This document shows, piece by piece, positions 32,741 to 49,546 of a stretch of DNA of 64,000 nt. The notes beneath the pieces are model-generated. The model made no database searches. It was not told the DNA's origin and was given only the letters and a program-made list of their open reading frames with translations. The position numbers and the translations under genes are program-made. Source of the DNA: Rhizobium sp. ASV20 (GTDB lineage Bacteria > Pseudomonadota > Alphaproteobacteria > Rhizobiales > Rhizobiaceae); the NCBI RefSeq assembly GCF_016429015.1, contig NZ_JAELTU010000001.1, positions 1 through 64,000 of the forward strand, given 5' to 3'. The first letter of the stretch is position 1. Each line of letters begins with the position of its first letter.

Positions 32741-32790
32741 TTGACAGGCAACCATTTGGTTGCTTATAAGATGGGAATAAGCAACCAAAT
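32741..32790 (+). promoter_or_regulatory. Promoter with overlapping operator for the ArsR-type gene
   Basis: A sigma-70-type promoter, TTGACA (32741-32746) and TATAAG (32765-32770) with an 18-nt spacer (17 if the -10 is read as TTATAA), overlaps a symmetrical operator. ATTTGGTTGCTTAT (32754-32767) and ATAAGCAACCAAAT (32777-32790) are a perfect 14-bp inverted repeat with 9 nt between. A further half-site GCAACCA (32748-32754) faces TGGTTGC (32757-32763) inside the spacer. A repressor bound here would cover the -10, so autoregulation by the downstream ArsR-type protein is the simplest reading. Confidence 0.8.
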
Positions 32791-32804
32791 AGTTCCGTAT
32801 TTCG

Positions 32805-33146
32805 ATGAATGACGATGCAGTATTCAAGGCTCTGGCGGATGCCAGCAGGCGGCAGTTGCTGGACCGGCTCTATGAGCAAAACGGCCAAACGCTAAATGCG
32901 CTTTGCGAAGATCTCGCCATGACCCGACAAGCGGTGGCCAAGCACCTCGCCATTCTGGAGGAGGCCAACCTCGTATCGACGGAAAAGCAGGGACGGGAAA
33001 AGCTGCATTTCATCAACTCGGTGCCGATCAATGAGATTGCCGAGCGCTGGATCAACAAGTTCGAGCGCCGGCAGCTAAGCGCGCTGTCAGCCTTGAAACG
33101 GGCTCTCGAAGGCGAGGGCGGTTCACAACCACCAAAGCAAGAATAG
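32805..33146 (+). CDS. ArsR-family transcriptional regulator (SRPBCC-associated type)
   Basis: Winged-helix repressor of 113 residues. The HTH lies at about 30-65 (ALCEDLAMTRQAVAKHLAIL) with the wing STEKQGREKLHFIN after it. It lacks the Cys metal-binding box of ArsR/SmtB metal sensors, so it is unlikely to sense arsenic or metals. This subtype is commonly paired with an AHSA1/SRPBCC protein, as here: the partner starts 19 nt downstream. Probably autoregulated from the operator at 32741-32790. Confidence 0.88.
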   Translation: MNDDAVFKALADASRRQLLDRLYEQNGQTLNALCEDLAMTRQAVAKHLAILEEANLVSTEKQGREKLHFINSVPINEIAERWINKFERRQLSALSALKRALEGEGGSQPPKQE

Positions 33147-33165
33147 TGAAACAAGGAGAAATGAC

Positions 33166-33609
33166 ATGACCGGAAGCAAATTCGTCTACGTCACATTCAT
33201 CCGCACTTCGCCGGAGAAGCTCTGGTCGGCGCTGACGACGCCGGAATTCATCAGGCAATATTGGTTCGACATGACGCATGAGACCGATTGGAAGGTCGGT
33301 TCGCCCTGGAAAATGGTCTTCTCCGATGGCCGTGTTGCCGACACCGGAGAAATCGCGGAGTTGGAGCCGCTGCGTCGGATCGCCTTTAAATGGCGCAATG
33401 AATTCAGGCCCGAATTGAAGGCGGAGGGATGGTCGCGTTGCGTCATGGAGTTGGAGCCGGCGGACGATGCAGTGAAGCTGACCGTTACCCACACGATCGA
33501 AGTCGAGAACTCCAAGTTCATCGAAGCCGTTTCCGGCGGTTGGCCGAAGATATTGTCCAATCTCAAGTCGCTGCTGGAGACCGGAAAGGTTGCCATCGCG
33601 AACAAGTGA
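33166..33609 (+). CDS. SRPBCC / AHSA1-domain protein
   Basis: 147-residue START-like fold protein of the activator-of-Hsp90-homologue-1 group. Features are FVYVTFIRTSPEKLWSALTT at the N-terminus, the GSPWKM strand, and the C-terminal amphipathic helix WPKILSNLKSLLETG that closes the hydrophobic ligand pocket. These proteins bind small hydrophobic ligands; no specific substrate is known. Translated behind aaggaga, in an operon with the ArsR-type gene. Confidence 0.85.
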   Translation: MTGSKFVYVTFIRTSPEKLWSALTTPEFIRQYWFDMTHETDWKVGSPWKMVFSDGRVADTGEIAELEPLRRIAFKWRNEFRPELKAEGWSRCVMELEPADDAVKLTVTHTIEVENSKFIEAVSGGWPKILSNLKSLLETGKVAIANK

Positions 33610-49436: not shown

Positions 49437-49500
49437 GAGGCCTGTCCTTCCGTCTTGTTGCACCATACGATGCCAAGCGGCGCGGTTCGGATCAAGTCCT

Positions 49501-49532
49501 CCGTGCCTCGCCGCCGACGCGGCGAGGCACGG
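49501..49532. repeat. Perfect 14-bp hairpin between pncA and the sugar permease
   Basis: CCGTGCCTCGCCGC (49501-49514), loop CGAC, GCGGCGAGGCACGG (49519-49532). It lies 15 nt past the permease stop on the reverse strand. Neither side has a T run, so a standard intrinsic terminator is not supported, although a stem this strong could still help end or stabilise the permease transcript. Confidence 0.6.
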
Positions 49533-49546
49533 AGATTGGCAAGGCC

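Follow-up and report, generated by a model that had tools for sequence, protein, structure and literature searches.

Two amino acids of an ArsR-type repressor appear to choose two letters of the palindrome in its own promoter

A 64,000-nucleotide stretch of Rhizobium sp. ASV20 DNA (hereafter the window) encodes an ArsR-type repressor that very probably shuts down the two-gene unit to which it belongs, through two copies of a 16-letter palindrome in the promoter. In a comparison of more than 140 relatives, two letters of the palindrome seem to be chosen by two amino acids of the repressor. Judged from orthologous promoters, the recognition unit is the 16-bp palindrome GCAACC-N4-GGTTGC, which lies as operator O1 between the -35 and -10 hexamers (Table 1). 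Taken as a whole, the reading of this locus as the promoter-operator of a self-regulated arsR-srpbcc operon, with its cognate operators and a helix-operator code, is highly probable. The operon is of an ordinary autorepressed kind, and its correctly parsed operator exposes a clean, cheaply testable code. Genomes carry many paralogues of ArsR-type regulators and, to our knowledge, how these avoid each other's operators is seldom known. Here half-sites become predictable from two residues, which is testable by single substitutions. If true, the code would allow operators to be predicted for many ArsR-SRPBCC pairs that are still uncharacterised. It would also supply a set of small repressors that may be orthogonal to one another, and the promoter could serve to trace the signals to which SRPBCC proteins respond.

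Table 1. Coordinates of promoter, operator and gene features in the window.
Feature	Position	Strand	Basis and remarks
-35 hexamer TTGACA	32741..32746	+	sequence; orthologous promoters
-10 hexamer TATAAG	32765..32770	+	sequence; 18-nt spacer from -35
Operator O1 GCAACCATTTGGTTGC	32748..32763	.	perfect 7-bp arms; fills promoter spacer; with flanks 32744-32767
Operator O2 GCAACCAAATAGTTCC	32781..32796	.	imperfect second copy in predicted start/leader region; with flanks 32777-32800
14-bp repeat of the preliminary description	32754..32790	.	combines the right half of O1 with the left half of O2
ArsR-type regulator, 113 aa	32805..33146	+	HTH_20/HTH_5; NF033788 above cut-off; recognition helix TRQAVAKH (A43, K46)
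Shine-Dalgarno AAGGAG of SRPBCC gene	33153..33158	+	sequence
SRPBCC/AHSA1 partner, 147 aa	33166..33609	+	PF08327, E 1.8e-24

Both promoter hexamers named in the preliminary description are where it placed them. The order in the window is TTGACA (32741), GGCAACCATTTGGTTGCT, TATAAG (32765-32770), ATGGGA, ATAAGCAACCAAATAGTTCCGTAT and the ArsR start at 32805; an automated promoter scan missed the promoter because it requires T as the last -10 base. The half-site GCAACCA indeed occurs three times (32748, inverted at 32757-32763, and 32781), and a fourth, degenerate half-site (TAGTTCC, 32790-32796) had been overlooked. Our comparison set comprises 92 ArsR loci, the window and 91 relatives (the best 80 of 145 from one genome scan and the 11 best non-self matches from 41 related genomes); it includes near copies, and 85 of the 92 proteins differ. 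A search for GNAACY-N4-RGTTNC, with at most one mismatch in the 130 bases before each ArsR, identifies a predicted operator in 90 of the 92 loci, which span Rhizobium, Acidobacteriota, Planctomycetota, Myxococcota and Actinomycetota. A perfect TTGACA stands seven bases before the first operator in 85 of these 90 promoters, and TAT occupies the -10 place at 98-100% in 60 distinct double-operator promoters and at 71-96% in 24 single-operator ones. The earlier claim of an operator over the consensus promoter of an autoregulated ArsR/SRPBCC operon is well supported by this conservation, and an ArsR dimer is predicted to bind the palindrome in its own promoter. Compensatory arm-to-arm changes were also considered as support and gave little signal, with covariation weak at position 2/15 (complementary in 32 of 49 versus 26 expected) and absent at other positions. 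Of the two loci without a match, L101 has a site that lacks one base and L013 has a deviant half-site.

The L013 promoter reads TTGACAT-GCAGGT-ATTT-GCCTGC. Its ArsR is 63% identical to that of the window and, alone among the 92, has S43 and Q46 instead of A43 and K46. The question posed before searching was whether an L013-type operator predicts an L013-type helix. The pattern TTGACANGCAGGN6CCTGC matches 11 of 297 genomes of the order (the reversed pattern matches none); ten of these matches, L013's included, lie near an ArsR relative, always with S43, T45 and Q46, and the remaining one (L180) has no ArsR relative nearby. With the ten middle bases left free, TTGACATGCAN10TGCATA finds 11 matches in 398 genomes of the phylum (reversed, none), and within 1 kb of each match there is an ArsR relative; five are ACC-N4-GGT and six GGY-N4-RCC, and the helix is the expected one every time. 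Loci from the preceding search recur in three of these six, and at three loci the ArsR start is 540-950 nt further on. T45 is found with both operator types and is therefore not the switch. The pattern TTGACANGNAACCNNNNGGTTNC has three matches in 289 genomes, all before an ArsR and one of them in the window.

Protein similarity was the sole criterion for picking plasmid relatives, first 11 of 16 records and then 14 more from among the matches listed (40 of 60 plus 40 of 104 records), and the rule for residues 43 and 46 was fixed between these two rounds. Among the first 11, L193 combines A43/K46 with GCAACC, five S43/Q46 regulators have GCAGG[CT] (L195 and L200, also S43/Q46, have it in one arm), the S43/K46 regulators L199 and L201 have GCAGCC, and L198 (G43/Q46) has GCAAG and a second operator with one arm GCAACA, that is, with C at base 5. 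Seven of the next 14 fit the rule: L204 and L205 (S43/K46, close to L199) with GCAGCC, L206 (S43/Q46) with GCAGGT, L212-L214 (A43/Q46, VOC partner) with GCAAG[CT], and L207 (G43/K46) with GTGAC[CT], in which the outer bases differ. Six others share the recognition helix DRCTVMQH and have GTTATA or a close variant, which is off the rule at base 5, and L215 has no readable operator. All four operator types were then sought in 394 genomes of the window's family (presumably Rhizobiaceae), giving 50 matches in 47 genomes and three for the reversed pattern. Thirty loci were examined after this search (27, three of them earlier loci, plus three picked; 17 of the 50 matches were left out); in 26 an ArsR is present and the code is obeyed, at L230 in one arm only, and no ArsR lies near the other four (L219, L226, L231, L233). 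The closest natural pair is TRQAVTKHL with GCAACC (L187, L247) versus TRQAVTQHL with GCAAGT (L245), where K46Q accompanies GCAAGT in a helix otherwise that of GCAACC loci.

For the totals, one operator per locus was set by TTGACA distance and symmetry on both strands, and arms were scored separately. The set holds 161 non-redundant loci: 144 with six residue combinations (87 found via protein similarity and 57 via operator pattern) and 17 of the DRCTVMQH class. With the few deviant arms listed below set aside, the 144 have A at base 4 beside A43 or G43 and G beside S43, and C at base 5 beside K46 and G beside Q46; all four class combinations occur. Arm counts for bases 4 and 5 are A 192/194 and C 194/194 with A43/K46 (97 loci), G 71/72 and G 71/72 with S43/Q46 (36 loci), G 8/8 and C 8/8 with S43/K46 (4 loci), A 8/8 and G 8/8 with A43/Q46 (4 loci), A 4/4 and C 4/4 with G43/K46 (2 loci), and A 2/2 and G 2/2 with G43/Q46 (1 locus). 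Deviant arms occur at L099 and L149 (A43/K46, one arm each with G at base 4) and at L195 and L230 (S43/Q46, one each). The DRCTVMQH class (T43/Q46, half-site GTTAT[AG]) has A at base 4 in 33/34 arms and T at base 5 in 34/34; Q46 therefore does not equal G outside the other helix contexts. A TTGACA-anchored palindrome was not found in 20 further non-redundant ArsR loci, many of them distant relatives, including the A43/K46 relatives L026 and L168 and the A43/Q46 relatives L165 and L166; the operator lies further upstream at L177, L191 and L192 and lacks the right TTGACA spacing at L202 and L206. The fixed frame of the code is TTGACA, one base, GCA-4-5-6, N4, the mirror image and TAT, and the partners of code-bearing ArsR proteins are SRPBCC, VOC or fused. 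We consider it likely that the code is compact and modular and holds across several phyla, with A or G at 43 specifying A and S43 specifying G at base 4 and, outside the DRCTVMQH class, K46 specifying C and Q46 specifying G at base 5, which would define four distinct, probably orthogonal repressor types. In the predicted recognition helix (41-53), roughly one turn separates residues 43 and 46, and both may contact bases.

Distant paralogues with divergent promoters form a side group (L014-L023, L164, L208-L211, L216 and L217), with the helix DRCTVMQH where shown; immediately next to TTGACA they carry GTTATA-N4-TATAAC, exact or slightly varied. L014-L023 have 39-48% identity, and the divergent gene at L210 and L216 is annotated SRPBCC.

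The association could instead be a by-product of descent, each helix class being one clade with its own operator and residues 43 and 46 not reading bases 4 and 5. On a tree from which the helix columns were excluded (as were the DRCTVMQH class, L024 and L128; the A43/K46 and S43/Q46 classes were thinned), residue 43 changes three times and residue 46 four times; no scored pair contradicts the rule, and the sign test gives p 0.25 for 43 and 0.5 for 46, three to four independent switches being too few for formal significance. This small number of switches fits descent, as do the single S43/Q46 clade (100/97) and the DRCTVMQH class with T at base 5 beside Q46, and helix positions 40 and 45 also change with some switches. 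Descent sits poorly, however, with the existence of four combinations in which, outside the DRCTVMQH class, base 4 follows residue 43 independently of residue 46 and base 5 follows residue 46 independently of residue 43; with L245 as a separate K46Q case; and with the pairing of A43/K46 and ACC across several helix backgrounds, among them relatives (L025, L027, L030, L031, L128) that are about 35% identical, have other helices and carry AACC-N4-[GA]GTT. L026 and L168, also A43/K46, lack such a site. We regard descent as an unlikely explanation and a two-residue code as the better one.

A footprinted system bears on the code. Rv2034 of Mycobacterium tuberculosis is an ArsR encoded before a polyketide-cyclase-like gene and an autorepressor footprinted on CCGTAAGT-N4-ACTTACGG (PMC3338718). 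It resembles the window ArsR in autorepression (predicted here), in its partner and in an N4-centred palindrome near the start, and differs in its half-site, GTAAGT (base 4 A, base 5 G), and in having further published targets (PMC3338718). For Rv2034 the code calls for Q at residue 46 together with A or G at residue 43. Its helix, which we take to be SRPAVSQHL, would fit that prediction.

The window ArsR belongs to the ArsR/SmtB family (NF033788 63.3 bits, cut-off 55; PF12840 33.2, cut-off 27; PF01022 27.9, cut-off 22), and its AF2 model has the expected helices and wing (mean pLDDT 77.4) with the recognition helix at 41-53. With SdpR-type autorepressors it shares the idea of a non-metal ArsR autorepressor, although it scores 48.7 bits against NF033789, far below that subfamily's cut-off of 100. 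Metalloregulators of the ArsR/SmtB family with 12-2-12 operators (e.g., AzuR) have a winged HTH fold and a hyphenated palindrome of similar extent. Unlike them, the window ArsR lacks a metal-binding Cys pair and is partnered by an SRPBCC protein rather than a metal-handling one. It had been described as being without metal-binding Cys, which is incomplete, as one Cys (C34) is present and conserved in 89/92 orthologues; the first 107 residues contain exactly one Cys in 85/92 orthologues, two in five and none in two. Conservation of C34, together with H68 in 92/92, would suit a metal or redox sensor acting through Cys34, but this role is doubtful given the missing Cys pair, the absence of C34 from L072, L103, L110 and L193, and the reported lack of response of the analogue Rv2034 to seven metals (PMC3338718). 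The conserved single Cys34 might still serve a thiol or redox input.

An AHSA1/SRPBCC gene lies downstream on the same strand at 89/92 loci, within 100 nt, overlapping or fused in 87; the exceptions are L097 (contig end) and L070 and L078 (no AHSA1 match). At L107 and L108 (Actinomycetota), both domains share one open frame of 276 and 280 aa, and 264-271-aa open frames on four actinobacterial plasmids (L193, L199, L201, L202) are probably further ArsR-SRPBCC fusions. Such fusions suggest that the job of the SRPBCC protein is tied to that of the regulator. A Shine-Dalgarno-like core (at least 4 bases) precedes 3/92 ArsR starts, not including the window's, versus 84/89 AHSA1 genes. In 15 of 24 single-operator loci the start codon is exactly 11 nt past the operator, near the expected transcription start, and ArsR translation in such loci may be leaderless. 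VOC-family partners replace SRPBCC at L212, L213 and L214, on Streptomyces and Deinococcus plasmids, with overlapping genes and an identical operator frame, and at L195 and L196, on two Rhodobacterales plasmids, the ArsR-SRPBCC pair is followed by a GFA-family gene.

The preliminary description spoke of a poorly studied regulator type, which needs tempering because the ArsR-SRPBCC pair is already known as a gene module: Makarova et al. (2009) described the two-gene ArsR-COG3832 (AHSA1/SRPBCC) module as mainly chromosomal (13 plasmid and 310 chromosomal cases in their Table 6; PMC2701414). The window has the arrangement that defines this module, an SRPBCC/AHSA1 gene (33166-33609) directly after ArsR, and the ArsR subfamily of the module likewise lacks the usual metal motif (PMC2701414). 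What the present analysis adds, for a single large group of orthologues, is an operator with its geometry and a helix code; the passages on ArsR-COG3832 in that paper give neither operator nor specificity (PMC2701414). Among the titles listed by a literature search on the operator letters and on ArsR with SRPBCC/AHSA1, none was recognisably on this operator, recognition codes lying outside the scope of the search. The module is listed among toxin-antitoxin-like pairs (PMC2701414), which would make SRPBCC a toxin and ArsR its antitoxin and repressor, but this is very improbable. The authors who listed the module considered a role in antibiotic resistance the most plausible (PMC2701414); a Stenotrophomonas COG3832-ArsR pair was non-toxic in E. 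coli and (data not shown) in its host (PMC7650669); some relatives have a VOC protein as partner; and both domains share one open frame at two actinobacterial loci.

The inverted repeat at 32754-32790 is real and not due to chance. As first described, it is perfect over 14 nt (32754-32767 with 32777-32790); a 9-nt loop separates the arms, which can be extended to 18 nt at 94%. The 64 kb contain two perfect repeats with arms of at least 14 and a loop of at most 9, whereas 20 first-order Markov simulations of the window gave a mean of 0.0. The other, at 49499-49534, has a perfect 16-bp stem and a 4-nt loop and is probably a terminator or other hairpin. A second operator copy is found at 66 of the 92 loci, 25-36 bp downstream of the first (33 bp for the degenerate O2 of the window), and 24/92 promoters have only one site at up to one mismatch. 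TTGACA occurs at the equivalent offset in 1/66 second copies (L107), and the AnA..TAT flanks are still conserved there; being kept without TTGACA, the flanks are part of an operator of about 24 bp, an extent near that of the 12-2-12 operators of the ArsR/SmtB family. The repeat therefore corresponds to the inner halves of two adjacent operators, and the variable distance and single-site promoters mean that pairing between sites is not conserved. On the same two counts the ATTTGGTTGCTTAT arms across the -10 are not supported as the recognition unit that had been proposed, and the "extra half-site" noted in the spacer is present yet is the left half of the main operator. The long repeat is the longest perfect match at the site (14 nt) and could form a stem, but it is most improbable as the functional element, whether bound as one unit (rejected on the spacing seen in orthologues) or as a leader-RNA hairpin, given that single-site promoters exist, that O1 alone is a perfect palindrome with 7-bp arms, and that other helix classes have a palindrome of the same geometry and other letters in the same place. 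Single and double operator states cluster on the ArsR tree, with about ten changes on poorly resolved branches. At L107 (1920-1970) a complete TTGACA-operator module is repeated in tandem at a distance of 28 bp, which looks like an intermediate in the origin of double-operator promoters.

In the mechanism we propose, an ArsR dimer would sit on the palindrome, the 16-bp core of which takes up the spacer between the hexamers of a strong sigma-70 promoter. The flanks of O1 coincide with the ends of both promoter hexamers, and this sharing would make repressor and RNA polymerase mutually exclusive; the weaker second copy over the start region may add repression. Within the half-site G-C-A-4-5-6, the recognition helix would read base 4 by residue 43 and base 5 by residue 46. 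With no Shine-Dalgarno at the ArsR start and a strong one before SRPBCC, derepression would be expected to yield mostly SRPBCC protein, which might then, as a more tentative step, bind or remove a small hydrophobic molecule sensed by the system.

A genome scan had been suggested as a route to the regulon, and a search for palindrome plus promoter reveals no further convincing site in the window's own genome. With up to two mismatches there are seven places, of which only the window is exact; the other six have two mismatches, lie inside open frames of 100-540 codons and have no ArsR homologue in the fetched stretch. The bare palindrome GCAACCANNTGGTTGC with up to three mismatches occurs at 518 places versus 207 for the reversed pattern, an excess of weak matches that may reflect composition; the 14 of these places examined, with one or two mismatches, all lie in open frames (182-750 codons), none near an ArsR homologue. 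The regulon is therefore probably the arsR-srpbcc operon alone, with the excess of weak matches as a reservation and with genome-wide negatives somewhat uncertain because the assembly (8.3 Mb) has 1068 contigs and 5.38% estimated contamination. Among six fetched ArsR paralogues of the same genome, only L164 (44%) has a related architecture, with a GTTATA half-site in a divergent promoter. At genus level, 32 of 80 genomes matched, and 19 of the 29 non-window loci examined are beside an ArsR and 10 are not. A wider regulon is possible for the GCAGGT class: at L219 (genome G1184, of the window's family), with no ArsR in the fetched stretch, a GCAGGT-type promoter-operator precedes an open frame that by eye is of the NAD(P)-binding F420-reductase type. 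The ArsR-SRPBCC pair at L194, which lies on a Microvirga plasmid, is likewise followed by a gene with the annotation NADPH-dependent F420 reductase.
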